The position numbers were made by a program, and so were the translations under genes. From Dehalococcoidia bacterium (GTDB lineage: Bacteria > Chloroflexota > Dehalococcoidia > SpSt-223), in the NCBI GenBank assembly GCA_025054935.1, contig JANWZD010000016.1, positions 1 through 64,000 of the forward strand: 64,000 nucleotides of DNA. Direction: 5' to 3'. Positions 10,760 to 53,129 of this stretch are shown piece after piece. Numbering within the stretch: position 1 is the first letter of the stretch; every line of letters starts with the position of its first letter. The notes under the pieces are model-generated. The model saw only the letters and a program-made list of their open reading frames with translations, did no database searches and was not told the origin of the DNA.

Positions 10760-12709
<1,950 letters not shown>

Positions 12710-12775: not shown

Positions 12776-15085
12776 CTACTTGATCGCGTAGAGACGGCCT
12801 TCTTCCGTGCCGAGAAAGAGCAGGCCGCGAGCAATCGTTGGCGAGACGCGGATCTGACCGGGCAGCGCGATCTCCAAGACTTTTTCGCCGGTCGCCACAC
12901 TCAGGACGAGAAGGCGCTTCTCCTCAGCGGCGGTATAGACGAGGTCGCCGGCGATGATGGGCGGCGCGGCGGGGTCGCCGACCTGCACTTGCCAGCGCCG
13001 CTGACCATCCAGCGCATTCAGCGCTGTCAGTTTTCCGTCGGTCCCCGGGACGAGCAGCACAGTTCCTGCGGCGGCCATCGCCGCCCGGACCGGCGAAGCA
13101 ACATTCGCGCTCCACTTGTAGCCGGGCTGCGGTCCCGGCAGCCCGACTGGCAGTCCCCACAGATACAGCTGGGCCTGCAGCTCGCGGCGTTCCCACTCGA
13201 ACGGCCCTCCCTTGGCGAAAGGGTCGAGGGCATGGACGATGCCCCGGTCGTTCGCAACGTAAGCGAACCCGCCGGCAAGCAGCGGCGGCGCGTCGATCGC
13301 GCCTCCCGCCCGGTAGATCCAGCGAAGCCGGCCGGTGACAAGGTCGAGGAGGTGCACCCGGCCGTCCGCTGTGCCAGCGACGACAAGCCCGTTGCCGATC
13401 GCAAGCGGGGCGCCGATCGCTGACCCGGCATCATAGCTCCAGCGCAGCGAGCCGCCGACTGCGTCAAGCGCATACACCCGGCCATCGTGCGAGGCGACGA
13501 AGAGCACCCCATCCACTGCCGCCGGCGCCCCGCTGAGCGGTCCGCCGGTGCGATAGTCCCAGCGCACGCTTCCGCCCCCGCTCTCTAAAGCGACAACGCG
13601 GCCATCCTTCAGGCCGACAAATACCACTCCGTCGGCGATAGCAGGGCCCGCTTCTATCGGCCCAGTCCCTCGGAACTCCCACCGTGCTTGCCCCGTCGTG
13701 ACATCGCGCGCTACCACTCGGCCATCGGCAAGCCCGACGATGACGATACCTCCGGCGCTGACGGGCGGCGATGTGATCCCGGCGCCGAGACTCTGCTGCC
13801 ACACAACCCGTCCTTCGAGGACCATCGCCGCTTCCGCCGCGAACGAGGTACGCGCCGGGTTGTGCCCAGCCATCGTCCAGCTGCCGGCGGGCGATGCGGT
13901 TGTCAGGGTCGAGAGCGCGCTCCCGGAGACCGCTGTCGCCGGCGGCGCGGCGAACCGGCTGACCCCGATCACGAGGAGCGCGACTGCGATGCCGCTCAAG
14001 ATCGCCTCGGCCGGTCGGGCGCTGATCCAATGACGGAGCGTAGCGAGAAGATGCCGCGCCGCGTTCGCCAGAATGGCGGGGGCGAAGGAGGGCGAGCGCG
14101 GCGGCGACCCGTTGGCAGTGATGGCGGCTTGCCCGCGGCGGCGCCGCGAAACTGCGGGGGGGGCCTGCGCGACCCTGGGAGCGCTGCAGGAGGAAGAAGC
14201 CTCGACATGCTCAGTGCGGCGGCGCTCGGGCTCAGCGGCGGCAGCCGCTGGACGACGGTAGTGGAGCAGCAGAGAGCGCGGCGGTCGCCCCTCGCCTGAG
14301 GCGGCAACGAGAGCGCGCAGCACCGCGCCGGCGGCGGCGGGTCGGTCCTCCGGTCGCTCGGCGAGCGCGGCAAGCAGCGCGGCATCAACGGCGGGAGAAA
14401 GGCTGCCGACCACGGCGCTCGGCCGCGCGGGCGGCGCGCCGGACGACGTCGGGACCGGGGAATGCCCGGTCAGCAGCGCGTAGAGCAGCGCGCCGTATGC
14501 CCAGACGTCGCTCCGCGTGGTGGCAGGGTCGCCGGCGCGCTGCTCGGGCGCAAGGGAGAAGCGTTCCGCAAGCAGGGCGCCGCGCTGCCGAGGAGGGGCC
14601 AGCCAGACCAGCCGCGCCACGCCGAACTCGGCGACGGCCACAGAACCATCACTCCGCAGCAGGACCGCCGTCGGGTCGAGACCGCCGTGCACGACCCCCC
14701 GAGCATGCGCGTAGTCCAGCGCTTCCGCCACCCCTTGTGCGATTGGCAGCACTTCTCTCCAGCTGCGAGGATAGCCCATCAGTGCGGCGACGCTGCGCTC
14801 CGCATAGTCGTCGAGCACGAGATAGGGGACCCCCTCTGCCTCTCCCACATCGAGGAGGGGCGCGATATGCGGATGGCGCAGCTCTCGCACCGACGCCATC
14901 ACCTCGTAAAAGCGGGCGAGGAGACGGCCGTCGGCGTCGGTCGGCAGTTGGTCGAGCAGCCGGAGGACAAGCACTCGCGCGCCGGAGCGCACCCGGTAGG
15001 CTGTTCCCAGCCCGACAGGCCCGAGCCGCTCGACAACGCGGTAGCGACCGATAACGGCCAGCGGCGCTGAACGCGAGCGCTCCAT
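12776..15085 (-). CDS. Membrane pseudokinase fused to an extracytoplasmic PQQ-type beta-propeller
   Basis: A 769-residue protein. Residues 14-255 have a Ser/Thr kinase (PknB-like) fold: IGRYRVVERLG start, the HPHIAPLLDVGE hinge region, the APEQ (180) loop and SDVWAYGALLYALLTG helix are intact. The catalytic residues are not: the Gly loop is GPVGLG, the VAIK lysine is replaced (VLVLR, 38-42), HRDLKPxN reads HGGLDPTAV (133-141) and DFG reads EFG (153). It is therefore predicted to be inactive. An Arg/Pro linker leads to one membrane helix (about 361-379). Residues about 405-769 carry repeated VxWxxxxGxxIxSPPVxxG/VYVGxxDGRVxALD blades of a PQQ-like propeller outside the membrane. The start is ATG 15085, 7 nt after a TATACT box; a TTG at 15106 is the alternative. 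Confidence 0.85.
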   Translation of the reverse strand: MERSRSAPLAVIGRYRVVERLGPVGLGTAYRVRSGARVLVLRLLDQLPTDADGRLLARFYEVMASVRELRHPHIAPLLDVGEAEGVPYLVLDDYAERSVAALMGYPRSWREVLPIAQGVAEALDYAHARGVVHGGLDPTAVLLRSDGSVAVAEFGVARLVWLAPPRQRGALLAERFSLAPEQRAGDPATTRSDVWAYGALLYALLTGHSPVPTSSGAPPARPSAVVGSLSPAVDAALLAALAERPEDRPAAAGAVLRALVAASGEGRPPRSLLLHYRRPAAAAAEPERRRTEHVEASSSCSAPRVAQAPPAVSRRRRGQAAITANGSPPRSPSFAPAILANAARHLLATLRHWISARPAEAILSGIAVALLVIGVSRFAAPPATAVSGSALSTLTTASPAGSWTMAGHNPARTSFAAEAAMVLEGRVVWQQSLGAGITSPPVSAGGIVIVGLADGRVVARDVTTGQARWEFRGTGPIEAGPAIADGVVFVGLKDGRVVALESGGGSVRWDYRTGGPLSGAPAAVDGVLFVASHDGRVYALDAVGGSLRWSYDAGSAIGAPLAIGNGLVVAGTADGRVHLLDLVTGRLRWIYRAGGAIDAPPLLAGGFAYVANDRGIVHALDPFAKGGPFEWERRELQAQLYLWGLPVGLPGPQPGYKWSANVASPVRAAMAAAGTVLLVPGTDGKLTALNALDGQRRWQVQVGDPAAPPIIAGDLVYTAAEEKRLLVLSVATGEKVLEIALPGQIRVSPTIARGLLFLGTEEGRLYAIK

Positions 15086-15092
15086 GGCGCGC

Positions 15093-15098
15093 AGTATA
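15093..15098 (-). promoter_or_regulatory. -10 element placing transcription start at the pseudokinase ATG
   Basis: TATACT on the minus strand ends 7 nt before ATG 15085, the distance at which transcription usually begins. No Shine-Dalgarno sequence is present. A leaderless mRNA is inferred; the -35 is weak (TTTGCC at 16 bp). Confidence 0.45.
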
Positions 15099-15208
15099 GG
15101 AAGCAAGCAAGCAGGGCAAAAGCAGTTAGCGCGCAGGCTGCACCGAGCAGCCCAGGCGGAGCCACACCCGCAGTATCCCGCTCGCGCCGATGAGAGGGCT
15201 CGGAACGG

Positions 15209-16507
15209 CTAGTTCGCGGCGGTTTTGATCACGTGGAGCGCGATCTCGCCGACGAGCTGGAGCGTTGCCGGCTGAACGAAGTGGGCGAGGTCGGTCGGCT
15301 TGTGGTAGTTCTCGTCGATCCCGGTGAAGAGAAAAAGCGTCGGGACCCCGATGCGCGCGAAGGAGGCGTGGTCACTCCCGCCGCCGGCGTTGGTCACCTC
15401 GGGGAGGGAGCGGCCGAGCGCTGCCGCTTTCTCGCGCGCTGGGGCGCTCAGGCGGGGCGCGCCCGCTGCCGAGAGCCGGATGTCGATGCCGACCATATCG
15501 AGGTTGATCATGCCGAGCAGTCGCGCCCGGTCAGGCTCACTCAGCTGCTGGACATAGGCGCGGCTGCCGATCAAGCCGTTTTCTTCGGCGCCGAACAGGA
15601 TGAACCGCAGTTCGGCGCTCGTGGGGGAGCCGGCGAGCGCTCGCGCTAGTTCAAGAAGCACCGCCGAGCCGGAGGCATTGTCGTTCGCGCCGGGCGACCC
15701 CTCAACCGAGTCGAGATGGGCGCCGATGATGAGGATGCCCTCGCCGCTTCCTGGCCGGGAAGCGATGATATTCTCGCTTTCGATGGTCTCTTGGCGCGCC
15801 TCGACGGTGAGGGCGACCAGCACCGGGCCGGCAGCAGCCTCGCGCGCAAGCCGGCGACCGTCATCTCGCGAGATGAACACCGCCGGGATCGGTGCCGGCT
15901 GACTGAGCGACGGCTGGATCAGGCCCGCCTCGGTGTTATAGACGATCACGCCGGCTGCGCCGGCCGCGGCGGCGCGCTCAACCTTCTCTTGAAAGGTGAT
16001 CTGGCCGCGCTCGATCAAGGCGATCGCGCCGGCAACGGCAGCGGGGACCTCCCCCTCGCGGCCGAGGCCGGCCGGCACGAGCGGAGCGGTAACCTCGCCG
16101 CTGCCCGAGTTCGTCATCGCCACTGCCTCAAGGACACCCGGCTGAGGCGAGACCACCCGCACCTCGACCCGGCGGACGCGAAACTCGTCGAACCGAAAGC
16201 GCTGGCGCTCAACGTGGTAGCCGAAAGCGCGCAGCTGGTTCGCCGCCCAGTCAGCGGCCCGAGCATAGCCCGCCGACCCTGCTGGCCGCGGCCCGATGGC
16301 CGTTGCGAGGTGGTCAACGATCCGCCAAGCCCGCTCGCCTGAGAATGTCGGGTCGGTGCTGACCGACGGTGCCTCCGCCCACGGGCTGGAGGCGGCCGGC
16401 GCCGGCGGCGGGGCGGCTGCCGGCGCTGCCAGCCGACAGCCCACGAGGGGCGAAAGGAGAACGGCAAGAAGAACGGCGAGAAACGCCCCGGCGCAACGAC
16501 GAACCAT
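15209..16507 (-). CDS. M28-family zinc aminopeptidase, lipoprotein with PA domain
   Basis: A 432-residue secreted metallopeptidase. From the ATG at 16507 the product has a lipoprotein signal (MVRRCAGAFLAVLLAVLLSP) with lipobox LVGC; an ATG at 16543 is an alternative. A protease-associated domain spans about 120-230 (ALIERGQITFQEKVERAAAAG, VIVYNTEAG). The M28 catalytic domain shows its metal and catalytic residues in order: GAHLDS (His, Asp), GANDNASG (Asp), FGAEENGLIGSR (Glu-Glu), INLDMVG (Asp) and GGSDHASF (His). It likely releases amino acids from peptides outside the membrane. It lies between the pseudokinase and P-type ATPase genes in the same direction, with spacing of 90 to 120 bp. Confidence 0.93.
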   Translation of the reverse strand: MVRRCAGAFLAVLLAVLLSPLVGCRLAAPAAAPPPAPAASSPWAEAPSVSTDPTFSGERAWRIVDHLATAIGPRPAGSAGYARAADWAANQLRAFGYHVERQRFRFDEFRVRRVEVRVVSPQPGVLEAVAMTNSGSGEVTAPLVPAGLGREGEVPAAVAGAIALIERGQITFQEKVERAAAAGAAGVIVYNTEAGLIQPSLSQPAPIPAVFISRDDGRRLAREAAAGPVLVALTVEARQETIESENIIASRPGSGEGILIIGAHLDSVEGSPGANDNASGSAVLLELARALAGSPTSAELRFILFGAEENGLIGSRAYVQQLSEPDRARLLGMINLDMVGIDIRLSAAGAPRLSAPAREKAAALGRSLPEVTNAGGGSDHASFARIGVPTLFLFTGIDENYHKPTDLAHFVQPATLQLVGEIALHVIKTAAN

Positions 16508-16596
16508 CTGCTGACCCTGCCCACTCCGCACTGGCGCGGTCATTTCAGATAGTGTACGCGGCACCAGCTGGTTTCACTCGCCAGGCGCTCCATGCC

Positions 16597-19185: not shown

Positions 19186-20478
19186 TTAGCCGATAGTCAC
19201 TACATTGGCGGTGCAGACCGTGCCGCCGACGAGGAAGTTGAAATTGAACGTGCCCGGCACGCCGATCTGCGCCTGCCAGCGCCAGACATAGCCTTTGCCG
19301 CCGCCCGAGACGCCGAGGAAGCGCGGGCTGCCGGGCCCTTGGACCGAGACGTTCACCGACGGCCGCGACGAGGTGACGGCGATCGTGAACAGTTGGTTCA
19401 CCCGCGGCCGGCCGGGGTCGAAGCTCATCTCCTCGTCGCCTTGGCAGGCCGCCGGCTTCGGCGGGGCCCACGGCTGCCACCACCAGGGAACCCAGGGGCT
19501 CCAATACGGCTGGTAGTACGGGACGGCAGGGGTGTACGGCACGTACGGATAGGTGTACGGCGCCCAGATCCCGTAGATGTAGTAGGGATAGACCATGGGC
19601 CGGTGATAGACCCCGTAGGGATACCAGTGGCCCCAGTGATAGTTCACGGGGTAGTACGGCTGGGTTCGGACGGAAGGCGGCGCGTAGTAGGGATAGTACG
19701 GCAGGTAGTAGTACGGCTGCGGCAGCGTCACCGCCGCGTAGGGGAAGGCGCCCCCAGCCCCCCAGCGGAGCTGCTCTGCGGTTGTCGGCTGCGCTGCCCC
19801 AACGGGAATGAGCCCCGCCGCTCCGAGCATGTCGCCGGCATTGGGCACAATCACGGCGCCTGCTGGCGCGAAACTGGTGGCAGTGCGCCATTGCTGGAGC
19901 GCAAGGCGCTCGGTCCGCAGCGTGACCACCGGGCCAAAATCCTCAAGGGCAACTGGCTGGCCGAAGATCGCAGCCGCGTTCGGGATGGCGTGATAGGCGG
20001 CGGCGATGCTGCCGTTCGCGGCCAGCAGTTCAGCGTTCGGCTCGCCGCCCGCCGGCACAGCGTAGGTCGAGGTCAGCCAGTCATCAAGCCCAGCGTCGGC
20101 GAGGATGCGCATCACGCTCGCGAGCTGGACCCCCGCCCCCGGCCGCCACTCGAGCACCCCTCGCTGGAACGCTTGGACGACCGCGTCATCGAGGACGAAC
20201 CGATGGGTTACCGGATAGCCCAGTGCGTCAACGCCGCCCAGCTGGCGGAATGCGTTGTAGAACGGGATACCGCCCGAGTCGAGCACGGCGAACCCCGTGC
20301 CGGCCGGCGCGGTGCCCCGCGTCTGCGTGAAGAACCACCCTCCTTGGACCGCCCAATCGTCGCCTGCTGCCGCCTCGCTCGCGCCCGGCAGCGCACTGAC
20401 AAGCAGAGCACCAAGCGCGGCGAGTGACAACGCAGCGCGGAGGGCACGGCGCGGCGCAGCAATCCACCGTCGTCGCAT
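19186..20478 (-). CDS. Secreted protein with LGYP-type repeat and Tyr/Pro/Trp-rich region
   Basis: A 430-residue exported protein. Residues 1-37 are a signal peptide (MRRRWIAAPRRALRAALSLA then an Ala-rich cleavage region). Residues 66-125 hold a module with LGGVDALGYPVTHRF and VQAFQRGVLEWRPG, a type common in Chloroflexota surface proteins. Residues about 254-340 are extraordinarily aromatic, with about two dozen Tyr and ten Trp among prolines (PYYYLPYYPYYAPP). A C-terminal beta-rich domain contains two cysteines (345 and near 422) that may form a disulfide. ATG 20478 follows GGAGGAGGT by a few bases, which decides the start. The function is unknown; a cell-surface or matrix role is a guess from composition. 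Confidence 0.8.
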   Translation of the reverse strand: MRRRWIAAPRRALRAALSLAALGALLVSALPGASEAAAGDDWAVQGGWFFTQTRGTAPAGTGFAVLDSGGIPFYNAFRQLGGVDALGYPVTHRFVLDDAVVQAFQRGVLEWRPGAGVQLASVMRILADAGLDDWLTSTYAVPAGGEPNAELLAANGSIAAAYHAIPNAAAIFGQPVALEDFGPVVTLRTERLALQQWRTATSFAPAGAVIVPNAGDMLGAAGLIPVGAAQPTTAEQLRWGAGGAFPYAAVTLPQPYYYLPYYPYYAPPSVRTQPYYPVNYHWGHWYPYGVYHRPMVYPYYIYGIWAPYTYPYVPYTPAVPYYQPYWSPWVPWWWQPWAPPKPAACQGDEEMSFDPGRPRVNQLFTIAVTSSRPSVNVSVQGPGSPRFLGVSGGGKGYVWRWQAQIGVPGTFNFNFLVGGTVCTANVVTIG

Positions 20479-47779: not shown

Positions 47780-48426
47780 TGCCAATCCGCCTCCTCCTCG
47801 CAGACGACCATCGGATGTTCCGCCAGGGCTTGCGCGAGTTGTTGGAGCGTCAGCCCGCAATCGAGGTTGTCGGCGAAGCGGCGACCGGTCCTGAGGTGAT
47901 CGCTGCCGTCGAGACCCTCCGCCCCGATATCGTCCTGCTCGATATTCAGATGCCTGGGCTCAACGGTGTCGAGGTTGCCAAGCGGCTTGCGGCCAGCCAC
48001 CCCGAGGTGAAGCTGATCATGCTGACGATGTATCGGGAGGACCAGCACCTGATCGAGTCGATCCGGGCCGGAGCGCGGGGCTACCTCCTGAAAGACGCGG
48101 ACGCCGAGGAGCTGATGACCGTGATCAGCCGCGTGGCGCGCGGCGAGTCGGCGCTCGACCCGTCGCTCGTCGCCGGGGTGTTTGCGGCCGTTCGAGGTGA
48201 GATACGGCCGGGCGGCGGGCCGCTCACTGAGCGCGAACTGGAGATTGTCCGTCTTCTCGCCGCCGGGCACGACAATCGCACGATAGCCGCTCGGCTCTAC
48301 CTTTCGGAAAAGACGGTCGCAAATCGGCTGAGCGAGATCTTTCAGAAGCTCGGCGTCACCAATCGGACGCAGGCAGCCCTTGTCGCCATTCAACGCGGTC
48401 TCGTCTCACCAGACGAAGCGAACTGA
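47779..48426 (+). CDS. NarL/LuxR-family response regulator
   Basis: A 215-residue regulator. The receiver domain has the acidic pocket in LLLADDHRMFRQ, the phosphorylated Asp55 in DIVLLDIQMPG, Thr83 in MLTMYRE and Lys105 in GYLLKDA. A LuxR-type helix-turn-helix follows (LTERELEIVRLLAAGHDNRTIAARLYLSEKTVANRLSEIFQKLGV). Its ATG overlaps the kinase stop, so translation is coupled. It probably binds DNA as a dimer after phosphorylation by the adjacent kinase. Target genes are not evident, but the paralogue pair upstream is a natural first place to look. Confidence 0.94.
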   Translation: MPIRLLLADDHRMFRQGLRELLERQPAIEVVGEAATGPEVIAAVETLRPDIVLLDIQMPGLNGVEVAKRLAASHPEVKLIMLTMYREDQHLIESIRAGARGYLLKDADAEELMTVISRVARGESALDPSLVAGVFAAVRGEIRPGGGPLTERELEIVRLLAAGHDNRTIAARLYLSEKTVANRLSEIFQKLGVTNRTQAALVAIQRGLVSPDEAN

Positions 48427-48503
48427 GCGTCGCGCCTCCTCTCCTTGCGCGGTCTCATCGCCGTGTCCGCTATCATGAGGCGCACTACGTGCAAGGAGTG
48501 AGC

Positions 48504-48935
48504 ATGGCAGTCGAGATCCCGGTCAAATGGTGGCGCTATCTCGGAGACCAGAAGATCGCTCGGCTGGCGACGGCCGACAAGCGCGGACGTCCCCATGTCA
48601 AGCCGACGTGGTACATTGTCTTCGAGCACAATATCTACATCGGCACCCAGAAAACCCGAAAAAGCTTCCGCAATATTCTCGAAAATAATCACGTCTGCTT
48701 CTGTGTCGACTCCGGGACGCGGGAGGACGAGTACAAAGGCATCATCATTTGGGGCTCAATGGAACTGCTGCCCGAAGACGATTTTCATGTCCTCTTCCGG
48801 CAGTTTCTTATCCAGCGCTACTACGGCACTGAAGATAACCCGGGATATCAATACGTCCGTTCGCTGCCCGCGCCTCAGCTGATGCGCCTCAAGCCGACCA
48901 AGATCTACACCTGGGACTTCTCCAATTTTGCCTAG
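48504..48935 (+). CDS. PPOX-like split barrel protein, third paralogue
   Basis: A 143-residue flavin-reductase-like protein: IPVKWWRYLGDQKIARLATADKRGRPHVKPTWYIVFEHNIYIGTQKTRKSFRNILENNHVCFCVDSG, the family core in which a nucleotide or F420 phosphate is bound. It differs from the 31379/32483 pair and is shorter. AAGGAG lies 9 nt before ATG 48504. Downstream SLPAPQLMRLKPTKIYTWDF is typical of the F420- or FMN-binding PPOX group. Cofactor and substrate are unresolved. It stands alone between the two-component genes and prs. Confidence 0.86.
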   Translation: MAVEIPVKWWRYLGDQKIARLATADKRGRPHVKPTWYIVFEHNIYIGTQKTRKSFRNILENNHVCFCVDSGTREDEYKGIIIWGSMELLPEDDFHVLFRQFLIQRYYGTEDNPGYQYVRSLPAPQLMRLKPTKIYTWDFSNFA

Positions 48936-48989
48936 CGGCGGTGGGCGCAGTTCGTCCTCCACGGCGCCTTCTCGGGGCTGGGCGGAGGC

Positions 48990-49187
48990 TTAGAGCAAGG
49001 TGCTCTGTCGGCGCTGGTAGTCGACAGCGGGCGGCGAGGTCATGCCGCCGACCCGCCGCGCCAGCCCGTGGAGGGCGGCGTTCTCGCTGTCATATTCCCA
49101 GCGTCCTTCGGGGGTCTCGGCGATCCACTTGCGCCGCTTCTTATCGAAGTAGACGCGGTTCGGTCGCGATTTTGGCTCGTCGCTCAT
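48990..49187 (-). CDS. Small basic hypothetical protein
   Basis: A 65-residue protein with AGGAG a few bases before its ATG at 49187. It reads KSRPNRVYFDKKRRKWIAETPEG then RWEYDSENAALHGLARRVGG, i.e. a short beta-hairpin (YFDKKRRKWIAE) and a helix. No cysteines or membrane segment are present. It lies divergently from prs. No family was recognised, but composition and a strong ribosome binding site support a real gene. Confidence 0.6.
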   Translation of the reverse strand: MSDEPKSRPNRVYFDKKRRKWIAETPEGRWEYDSENAALHGLARRVGGMTSPPAVDYQRRQSTLL

Positions 49188-49350
49188 CGTTCTCCTGCGT
49201 GTGGGAATAGCTGCCGGTTCTCGCTCTCCTCGTGGTATCATACTGCGGGCGGGGGAATCCGGTCGACGCGATGGTCAAGCACACGGGGCGCGCGTCGCGA
49301 TGCCCCGTCTGGGCACACGGTCGCGCAGCAGCGACGGAGGAAACGCAGGA

Positions 49351-50343
49351 GTGGCCCGAGAGATCGCGGTCTTCTCTGGACGAGCGCATCTCAGCCTTGC
49401 TGAAGCCGTTTGTCAGGAACTCCACATCCCCCTCGGCCAACGCCAACTCTTCGATTTCACCAACGGCCAGACGTTCGTCAAGTACGAGCAGATGGTTCGC
49501 GACCGGGATGTGTTCATCATCCAGCCCGGCGCGGCGCTGCCGAACGGGTCCGTCAACGACGCGATCATGGAGCTGCTCATCATGATCGAGGCGGCGCGGC
49601 GCGCGTCGGCGTGGCGGGTCACGGCGGTCATGCCGTATTTCGCCTACGCCCGGAGCGACAAGAAGGACCAGCCGCGGGTGCCGATCACGGCGCGGCTGAT
49701 CGCCGACCTGCTGGTCGCGGCGGGCGTCAACCGCGTGCTGACCCTCGACCTCCACGCCGGCCAGATCCAAGGGTTCTTCCCGGCGACGGTGCCGGTCGAC
49801 GAGGTGACCGCATTTCATCTCCTCTGCGATCACATCTCCAGCCGGCGCTTTCGCAATCTGGTCGTGGTCGCCACCGATCTCGGCTTCGCCAAGCGCGCCA
49901 AGAATTTCGCCCAAGTGCTTGGGGCGCCCGTCGCCTTTGTCGCCAAATCGCGTCTTGGGAACACCGACCTGACGGAGGCAGAGCACCTCATCGGCGATGT
50001 CGCCGGGCGGGTGGCGCTGCTCGTCGACGACGAGATCGATACCGCAGGCTCGATCACGTCTGCGGCGCGCATCTGCATCGAGCACGGCGCCACAGAAGTG
50101 TATGCGGCAGCAACCCACGGGCTTTTCTCGGGGATGGCAATCGAGCGCCTCGCGCAGTCGCCCATCACTGAGCTGATCGTCACCGATAGCTTGCCCCAGC
50201 ATACCGTTTGCGAGCGGCTGCCGAAGGTGACTGTACTGCCAATTGCGCGTCTCATCGCGGAGGCGATCCACCGCATTCACGAGGGCGAGAGCGTGGGCGC
50301 GCTCTACCGTACCCTCTATGGGGACTGGCTGCCGGTTTCTTAG
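49351..50343 (+). CDS. prs: Ribose-phosphate pyrophosphokinase
   Basis: PRPP synthetase makes phosphoribosyl pyrophosphate from ribose 5-phosphate and ATP for nucleotide, histidine and tryptophan synthesis. The 330-residue sequence has IAVFSGRAHLSLAEAVCQEL, the FTNGQTFVKYE region, the ATP-side loop YARSDKKDQPRVPITARLIADLL, DLHAGQIQGFF, and the PRPP-binding loop VALLVDDEIDTAGSITSAA, which has DTAGS where DTGGT is usual. The start is GTG 49351 with GGAGGAAACGCAGGA upstream; the in-frame extension to 49201 has no coding character. It ends 32 bp before secA. Confidence 0.94.
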   Translation: MAREIAVFSGRAHLSLAEAVCQELHIPLGQRQLFDFTNGQTFVKYEQMVRDRDVFIIQPGAALPNGSVNDAIMELLIMIEAARRASAWRVTAVMPYFAYARSDKKDQPRVPITARLIADLLVAAGVNRVLTLDLHAGQIQGFFPATVPVDEVTAFHLLCDHISSRRFRNLVVVATDLGFAKRAKNFAQVLGAPVAFVAKSRLGNTDLTEAEHLIGDVAGRVALLVDDEIDTAGSITSAARICIEHGATEVYAAATHGLFSGMAIERLAQSPITELIVTDSLPQHTVCERLPKVTVLPIARLIAEAIHRIHEGESVGALYRTLYGDWLPVS

Positions 50344-50363
50344 CCGCCTGCAGGGGGGACTGG

Positions 50364-50369
50364 TAGAAT
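50364..50369 (+). promoter_or_regulatory. -10 element abutting the secA start
   Basis: TAGAAT ends 6 nt before ATG 50376, so transcription would start at or next to the start codon; no Shine-Dalgarno is present within range. The -35 (TAGCCG or TTAGCC) is weak. A leaderless secA mRNA is inferred. Confidence 0.45.
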
Positions 50370-50375
50370 TTGCGT

Positions 50376-53129
50376 ATGCTCAAGTGGCTGAAGAACCTCC
50401 TCATTAGTGACTCACCCGAGAAGACGATCAAGCGGCTTACCCCCATTGTTCAGCAGATCAATGAGCTCGAGCCGCAGTTTGTTGGACTGAGCGACGAGGC
50501 GCTGCGCCGCAAGACCGAAGAATTTCGGCAGCGGCTCGCCGACGGCGAGGGGTTAGACGACCTGCTGCCCGAGGCATTCGCTGCCGTCCGCGAAGCAGCG
50601 CGCCGCTCGATTGGGCTGCGTCACTTCGATGTCCAGCTGCTGGGCGGCATGGTGCTTCACGAAGGCAAGATTGCGGAGATGCGGACGGGCGAAGGGAAGA
50701 CCCTTGTCGCCACGCTGCCCGCTTACCTGAATGCGCTGACCGGGCGCGGCGTCCATGTGGTCACAGTGAACGACTACCTCGCTAAGCGCGATGTCCAATG
50801 GATGGGGCCGGTGTATCATCGGCTGGGCGTCTCGGTGGCGTCGATCCAGCACGAAGCATCGTTCTTGTACAACCCGGAATGGACAGAAGGCGACCCGCGC
50901 TTTCTTCATCTCCAACCGATCACGCGCAAAGAAGCCTACGCTGCAGATATTACCTACGGGACGAACAACGAGTTCGGCTTCGACTATCTTCGCGACAACA
51001 TGGTAGTCGACCTGTCTCAGCGCGTGCAGCGAGGGTGGTACTATGCCATCGTCGATGAGGTAGACAACATTCTGATCGACGAAGCGCGAACGCCGCTCAT
51101 CATCTCCGGCCAAGCGGAAGAGCCGACCGAGAAATACTATCACTTTGCGCGCGCAGTGCAGAATCTCCAGCCGGAAGAGGATTACACGGTTGACGAGAAA
51201 ACCCGCTCGGTAATGTTAACTGATCAAGGGATCACTCGAATCGAGCGGATTCTCAAGATCGATAACCTCTTTGATCCGGCGAATTTCGAGATTGCCCACC
51301 ATGTTCAGAATGCGCTCAAGGCGAAAGTGCTGTTCAAGCGTGACCGCGACTATGTCGTGCGAAACGGCGAAGTAGTGATCGTTGACGAGTTTACCGGTCG
51401 GCTGATGTTTGGTCGCCGGTGGTCAGACGGCCTCCATCAGGCGATCGAGGCGAAAGAAGGGGTGAAGATCCAGCGAGAGAGCGTCACGCTGGCAACGATC
51501 ACCTTCCAAAACTACTTCCGCATGTATGAAAAGCTCGCCGGGATGACCGGAACGGCGCTCACCGAACAAGAAGAGTTTCATAAGATCTACAACCTGGACG
51601 TCGTTCCCATTCCAACCCATAAGCCGATGATCAGGATCGACTACGGCGATGTGATCTATAAGACCGAGAAAGCGAAATTCAATGCCGTTGTCGAAGAGAT
51701 CATCGCTGAGCATAAAAAAGGCCGACCGGTCCTTGTCGGCACAGTCTCCATCGAGAAGAGCGAATATCTCTCCAGTTTGTTGTCGAAGCGCGGGATCCCG
51801 CACAATGTGCTCAACGCCAAGTATCATGAGCGTGAGGCATTGATCGTCGCTCAGGCTGGCGCGCCCGGCCAAGTCACAATTGCCACGAACATGGCAGGTC
51901 GCGGCACCGACATCATCCTTGGCGGCAACGTCGATCTGATGACCGACGATCTGCTGCGGAAGCAGGGAATTGAGCCGCATCAGGCGACGGAAGAACAGCG
52001 CGCTGCTGCGCGCGCCGAGGCCACTGCCCTCTGGGAGAAGCAGCGGGAGCAGGTCGTCGCTGCGGGAGGGCTGCATATCATCGGCACCGAGCGCCATGAA
52101 GCGCGCCGCATCGACAATCAGCTTCGCGGACGCGCCGGTCGTCAGGGTGATCCCGGGTCGTCTCGCTTCTTCGTCTCGCTTGAAGATGACATCATGCGCC
52201 GCTTCGGCGGCGATCGTGTCAAGAAAATCATGGAATGGGCCGGCATGGAAGAGGATGTGCCGATCGAACATCCTCTGGTCAGCAAGTCGATTGAGACGGC
52301 CCAGACCAAGGTCGAGGGATATAACTTCGACATTCGGAAGCACGTCGTTCAGTATGACGACGTGATGAATAAGCAGCGCGAAGTCATCTACGGCGAGCGG
52401 AACAAGATCCTCTCCGGTGCCGACCTCAAGGCAAATATCCGGGAGATGATCCACCGCTCCCTCGAGAACCTGATCGCACAATATGTCGGCGATCGCGTCG
52501 ACGAAGAGACCGATTTCGAGCCGCTGCTGAATCAGATTCGAATGATCTTCCCCCTGCCGGCTGAGATTACGCCGGAGTATCTCTCGAGGATGAGCGCCGA
52601 CGAGGTGATCGATGTCATCCTCGAGGCCGCCGACCGTGCCTATGAAGAGAAAGAGCGCGAGGTCGGCAGCGAGAACATGCGCTTGCTGGAGCGGCTTGTC
52701 CTCCTCCGCGCGATCGACACCAACTGGGTCCAGCATCTGACCCAGATGGAGCATATCCGCGAGGGAATTGGGCTCCGTGCCTATGGCCAGGCCGACCCGC
52801 TGGTGGCATACAAGAAAGAGGCGTTCGCGCTCTACGACGAGCTTCGCGCAAACATTGAGCGCGATACTGTCAACATGATCTATCACGTCGGCATTCTTCA
52901 GACGCCGCCTCCGCCCCCGGCGGTCCGCAATATTCAGGAAAACCGTCCCCCAGACGCCGAGTCGGCCGCGCGCGCGCGTGCTGCCAGCCGCGCAGTGGCC
53001 CCTCCCGCTCGGAATGGCGCTCGCGCCGCCGCTCCTGTCGCCGTGGGCGCAGGCCGCAAGGTCGGACGCAACGAGCCGTGTCCCTGCGGAAGCGGGCGCA
53101 AATACAAGAAGTGCCACGGCGCCCTCTGA
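50376..53129 (+). CDS. secA: Preprotein translocase ATPase SecA
   Basis: The motor that drives secretory proteins through SecYEG. The 917-residue protein contains NBD1 with MRTGEGKTL (102-110), the FDYLRDNM and [20 protein letters not shown] segments, the preprotein-binding domain, NBD2 with [10 protein letters not shown], and the Q-R-R region [26 protein letters not shown]. The C-terminal zinc tail [12 protein letters not shown] is complete, which usually recruits SecB-type chaperones or lipids. Start ATG 50376 is chosen over TTG 50370. The enzyme serves the many exported proteins in this window. It is the end of the prs direction and is followed by repeats. Confidence 0.98.

Follow-up and report, generated by a model that had tools for sequence, protein, structure and literature searches.

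A gene from a hot-spring Chloroflexota (Dehalococcoidia) genome, G000, encodes a kinase fold that lacks the catalytic landmarks of its class and is joined through a membrane helix to a PQQ-type propeller. The question raised by this locus is whether the kinase part is a working, non-catalytic component or a relic. Bacterial pseudokinases are experimentally largely unexplored (PMC12599244). We analyzed the gene in a 64,000-nucleotide stretch of contig C16 (the window), in the same-genus relatives G001 (HOT.Cluster.3) and G002 (KatS3mg060), and in a wider Dehalococcoidia family. We find that the protein (the query) is a membrane pseudokinase with a BamB-like propeller and that its kinase part is a selected non-catalytic fold, as the original prediction proposed, and we think it probable that the protein serves as a docking or signaling part without catalysis.

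Loss and retention in the kinase fold

The gene and the altered sites of its kinase part are as follows.

12776..15085 (-), pseudokinase, membrane helix and propeller gene, 769 aa, ATG start
14300..15052 (-), kinase-fold domain, residues 12-262 (PF00069, E 4.9e-17, 62.6 bits vs a cut-off of 31.7; alignment)
14960..14962 (-), former VAIK Lys, now Arg42 within VLVLRLL (Tyr in G001; alignment)
14681..14689 (-), HRD changed to HGG, residues 133-135, identical in three species (alignment)
14621..14629 (-), DFG changed to EFG, residues 153-155 (GFG in G001; alignment)
14447..14452 (-), site of a genus-specific 9-residue deletion after residue 212 that removes helix alphaG (alignment)

Seven catalytic residues (K, alphaC Glu, HRD Asp, K+2, N+5, DFG Asp and P+1 Thr) were scored with the five canonical kinases of the query's own genome as the reference, and we found the query keeps 0/7, as do all three species of the genus. 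HRDLKPxN has become HGGLDPTA (Asp for the HRDxK Lys and Ala for the Asn), the alphaC Glu is Val, and the P+1 'GT' is lost; APE, SDVW, the alphaF Asp and the late Arg are preserved. The motif losses, the retained APE and SDVW motifs and the coordinates of the gene are as originally predicted. The helix alphaG deletion, common to all three orthologues, is an additional loss, and a low-confidence structure model has no helix at residues 207-230. Hence, the protein falls outside the active Hanks-type Ser/Thr kinases (PknB-like), since the VAIK Lys, HRD Asp and DFG Asp are absent, and it is a pseudokinase by its recognizable kinase fold and a motif loss conserved among orthologues.

The substitutions are only partly the same in the three species: HGG is fixed (G/G/G at the HRD Asp), whereas the residues are R/R/Y at the VAIK Lys, E/E/G at the DFG Asp and A/A/V at N+5. 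Because the residues that replace the VAIK Lys and the DFG Asp are not the same in every species, the suggestion of an ATP-binding sensor is not supported. Arg42 and Glu153 are conservative changes found in two of the three species, and weak nucleotide binding is possible. The ATP-site positions drift, but alphaE (WREVLPIAQGVAEALDYAHARG) and DPATTRSDVWAYGALLY (alphaF/APE region) are invariant in the three species, which suggests that what selection maintains is the kinase fold and surfaces remote from the ATP site.

The same positions bear on the idea of a domain with altered catalysis, as in SelO or SidJ. Kinase folds without the standard motifs provide a precedent (PMC12599244), but SelO and SidJ retain nucleotide- and metal-binding residues (PMC12599244, Table 1), whereas the Lys, Asn and DFG-Asp sites of the query are lost and variable among the three species. 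We consider this reading very improbable.

Both orthologues are full length (74% identity for G002 and 62% for G001) and carry the same catalytic losses, so the catalytically intact close relatives that would have pointed to recent decay are not found in G001 or G002. The dN/dS values, which are rough because dS (1.1-2.1) is near saturation, are 0.15, 0.24 and 0.12 for the kinase part in three pairwise comparisons and 0.11, 0.17 and 0.15 for the propeller; in comparison, canonical kinases give 0.06-0.14 between G000 and G002. The kinase part is slightly above most active kinases of the genus, and some relaxation of selection on it is possible. Recent decay was rejected, given losses fixed in three species and low dN/dS at a dS of about 1 or more. 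Chance or sequencing error was also rejected, with an open frame and losses common to three separate assemblies. Hence, these ratios indicate that purifying selection maintains both the dead kinase domain and the propeller, in agreement with the selected non-catalytic fold first proposed.

The upstream region and the neighboring genes hold three further features.

15091..15114 (-), 24-bp upstream block CTGCTTGCTTGCTTCCTATACTGC with a -10-like TATACT, last base 7 bp before the ATG
10760..12709 (-), acetyl-CoA synthetase (acs), downstream neighbor (PF00501/PF16177), conserved in G001 and G002
15209..16564 (-), M28 peptidase with a PA domain, upstream neighbor (PF04389, PF02225)

The open reading frame spans 12776-15106 (-), and translation probably starts at the ATG at 15085, since the conserved block with its TATACT sits just 5' of it. 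A TTG start at 15106 is unlikely, as the conserved -10-like box falls between TTG and ATG. The 24-bp block is identical across the three species within intergenic DNA that has otherwise diverged, and its 23-bp core occurs as a single copy in each of the three genomes with up to three mismatches allowed. A standard sigma-70 scan returned no -35/-10 pair. The block is a probable gene-specific promoter/operator, and its position suggests a leaderless mRNA made from the gene's own promoter. The order M28 peptidase, pseudokinase-propeller, acs is the same in G001 and G002.

Elsewhere in the window, a secreted protein is encoded at 19189-20478 (-) that has about 20 paralogues in G000; the domain of this family (FTQTRG...LGYPxTxRF...QAFQRGVLxW) is without a Pfam match at 1e-5. 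Several kinase-fold genes have copies nearby, among them those of both propeller pseudokinases of G000. In a post-hoc permutation, the proximity of kinase genes to this family gave p 0.003 in G000 and 0.06 in G002 at 6 kb, a statistically weak link and a lead only. The region 48001-52000 has local G+C down to 0.606 relative to about 0.64-0.69 for most of the window.

Membrane helix and propeller

The C-terminal half of the protein holds the following features.

13952..14005 (-), probable membrane helix, residues about 361-378 (sequence hydrophobicity; model helix 358-379)
12779..13807 (-), eight-bladed BamB-like propeller, residues 427-769 (PF13360, PQQ_2, E 5.5e-66, 223 bits)
13118..13216 (-), family-defining insert between blades 5 and 6, residues about 624-656 (...QAQLYLWGLPVGLPGPQPGY)

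Basic residues before the membrane helix suggest an N-inside topology. Structure prediction served one half of the protein well: in a full-length model from three sequences, the propeller has eight blades and a pLDDT of about 80-90 over most of its length, and the kinase part is modeled poorly (mostly below a pLDDT of 50, and at 44 in a single-sequence model). With Foldseek, the nearest structures to the propeller are the designed eight-bladed Cake8 (TMt 0.91), BamB (about 0.8) and YxaL. BamB is a protein-binding propeller. The propeller of the query, with the same fold, may bind a partner as well. It may also be the input of the sensor, as originally suggested.

A propeller that senses PQQ or redox state and signals through the kinase fold, like the Deinococcus kinase with PQQ-interacting domains, is suggested by the family name PQQ_2 and by the statement in PMC12599244, citing Rajpurohit and Misra 2013, that PQQ is reported to stimulate some such kinases. 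However, a PQQ_2 match alone is no sign of PQQ binding, the fold is BamB-like, and the PQQ dehydrogenase model gives 73 bits against a cut-off of 480. A PQQ sensor is therefore a highly unlikely account of this protein.

A Dehalococcoidia family with graded kinase loss

A profile of seven full-length members was run against 393 genomes of the class, and the family set studied has 16 kinase-bearing and 16 propeller-only members. The insert of ~30 residues between blades 5 and 6 is present in 32/32 members and in 0/12 other PQQ propellers (six Streptomycetaceae kinases and six from the class or the query's own genome). In a 400-genome Chloroflexota sample, only five proteins outside the class, all kinase-type, matched at E 1e-85 or better; their alignment to the family stops before the insert, and HRD and DFG are intact in the three that were examined over their whole length. 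Many family members carry a Cys4 zinc-ribbon motif before the membrane helix.

Across the family, the kinase part runs from near-intact through degenerate to absent, partly at one conserved locus. All 16 kinase-bearing members are without the P+1 Thr, and 15 of the 16 have lost the second loop Gly. HRD Asp is lost in nine members (five have Asn, three Gly and one Ser), which takes a minimum of four changes on the kinase tree, and the VAIK Lys and DFG Asp were each lost at least twice. The member in G346 still has K, HRD and DFG, having lost the alphaC Glu and P+1 Thr; the most degraded kinase part is that of the query genus. The query trio lies on a long branch outside the clade of the other 13 members (split 98/97), so its kinase part either diverged early or arose by a fusion of its own. 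Since the trio does not nest among the other 13, the lessons of the wider family may not all transfer to it, and the kinase tree by itself cannot separate kinase loss from kinase gain.

A second insert-bearing propeller pseudokinase of G000, L086 (C15:4006-6222), has 33% identity to the query and HGN in place of HRD; its K and DFG are intact. The orthologue in G002 reads HGD; hence, this Asp changed within the genus.

The repeated, independent changes of catalytic residues and the absence of the whole domain in many lineages are what would be expected if the kinase domain were a drifting remnant heading for loss and only the propeller mattered. However, the kinase part of the query has a dN/dS of 0.12-0.24 at near-saturated dS, with 66-76% identity and invariant blocks. 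Moreover, between L088 (G007) and L090 (G065), whose dead kinase part has HGD-NSRD and NAG for DFG, conservation is 92% in that part and only 77% in the propeller. We therefore hold a drifting remnant to be improbable. With all seven catalytic residues lost in the three species and the kinase part under selection, a non-catalytic role remains our reading. Since the propeller and its insert persist where the kinase part is absent (G121 and G381), the sequences indicate that the propeller is the conserved core of the family and the kinase fold its non-catalytic module.

The recurrent family locus is holA←, →gene→ychF→hemW. We found ychF directly downstream on the same strand at 11 loci (G004, G055, G007, G065, G073, G346, G321, G080, G121, G016 and G019), divergent holA upstream in G007, G065, G346, G321, G089, G121 and G381, and hemW following in G346, G321, G089 and G381. 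The family gene adjoins ychF, holA or hemW in 13/21 loci examined, so the linkage is frequent and not defining; in the query genus, the gene is off this locus, between the M28 peptidase and acs genes. In G121 and G381, the gene at the same syntenic locus is propeller-only and bears the insert. A YchF search (TIGR00092, 20 genomes) found one clear YchF in nearly all genomes and two in G280. The YchF proteins of the class are divergent, with several below the TIGR00092 cut-off (L092:9181-10293, L091:8270-9391, L093:5329-6435 and others), and the YchF encoded at the corresponding position beside the propeller gene of G080 is a typical one.

The kinase content of these genomes bears on the proposal that the pseudokinase serves an active Hanks kinase as allosteric partner or substrate, as MviN does PknB. 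MviN is a membrane pseudokinase that is phosphorylated by PknB and recruits FhaA (PMC12599244), and G000 has 11 kinase folds, five canonical and six degenerate (query included). With five canonical kinases, scaffolding of a partner kinase is possible in the query genome. However, alphaG, an important docking surface, is deleted in the query, and a degenerate family member is the sole PF00069 match in G007 (90% complete). A family member is likewise the sole match in G346 (94% complete), G321 (96%), G074 (75%) and G004 (54%), and a PF00069 search of G121, G381, G016, G019 and G384 returned no match. Hence, within the completeness of these metagenome-assembled genomes and the reach of PF00069, scaffolding a partner Hanks kinase cannot be the family's general role, and we regard it as unlikely for the query.

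The other five degenerate folds of G000 are at C2:181844, C15:4057, C2:336822, C16:76004 and C3:138701 (L006, L007, L008, L010 and L011); L006 (HRN, DFS) has a dN/dS of 0.04, lower than any canonical kinase tested. The propeller-only proteins L104 (G019), L100 (G121) and L102 (G381), from genomes without a PF00069 match, have a membrane helix and some a zinc ribbon, which may be their whole cytosolic part.

Proposed role and known systems

In the reading that we favor, a docking or signaling part without catalysis, the protein would cross the cytoplasmic membrane once. Outside, the propeller with its hydrophobic family insert would bind a protein or envelope partner; inside, the kinase fold would be unable to transfer phosphate and would probably no longer bind ATP. 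As a docking or dimerization module, it may report the propeller's state to a partner in the cytosol, or it may simply tether that partner at the membrane. The recurrent linkage makes YchF a concrete candidate partner. By a bolder extension, which we put forward as doubtful, a class-wide system would have the insert-bearing propeller act across the membrane as a regulator of the translation ATPase YchF, first via an active kinase and later, in many lineages including the query, via a dead fold or none. If true, the receptor family would have outlasted the enzymatic activity of the kinase fused to it, in cells where further Hanks kinases may be absent.

The family forms a graded natural series, from near-intact to dead to no kinase, on one conserved scaffold. 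Part of it shares a single syntenic locus, and part of it comes from genomes without another Hanks kinase. This series makes a post-catalytic role of the kinase fold testable without a partner kinase in the background.

Among known systems, MviN (ActPs3) and EssB/YukC are likewise membrane proteins with a cytosolic pseudokinase as a scaffold (PMC12599244), but they are without a propeller, MviN is a PknB substrate, and EssB serves type VII secretion. BamB shares the eight-bladed fold (TM-score about 0.8 by target length); however, it is an outer-membrane lipoprotein of the BAM complex, whereas the query is membrane-anchored and fused to a kinase fold, and it scores 157.3 bits with the NCBIfam equivalog model for BamB, below the cut-off of 285.2. 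AfsK and other Streptomyces propeller kinases have the same kinase, linker and PQQ-type propeller architecture, but six plasmid-borne Streptomycetaceae examples keep K, HRD and DFG and are without the insert, and the query scores 110.9 bits against an AfsK cut-off of 1300.

A literature search on Chloroflexi pseudokinases or Dehalococcoidia propeller kinases found nothing relevant, and the actinobacterial propeller proteins L154-L158, candidate pseudokinases, gave no kinase-domain match to the family model. The nearest published description is that of ActPs1, bacterial pseudokinases primarily of Actinobacteria, close to Act1 and with a constraint pattern of their own family (PMC12599244). As in the query, all three catalytic motifs are substituted in ActPs1, PQQ_2 is C-terminal to the pseudokinase in many of them, and the G-helix, deleted in all three query orthologues, is missing in about 60%. 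In contrast, the query's host is a Chloroflexota of the class Dehalococcoidia and its propeller bears a family-specific insert, with ActPs1 compared by description only. Hence, the pseudokinase-PQQ_2 architecture is already known from ActPs1 (PMC12599244), and what is new here is the host phylum, the insert family, the graded kinase loss and the ychF locus.
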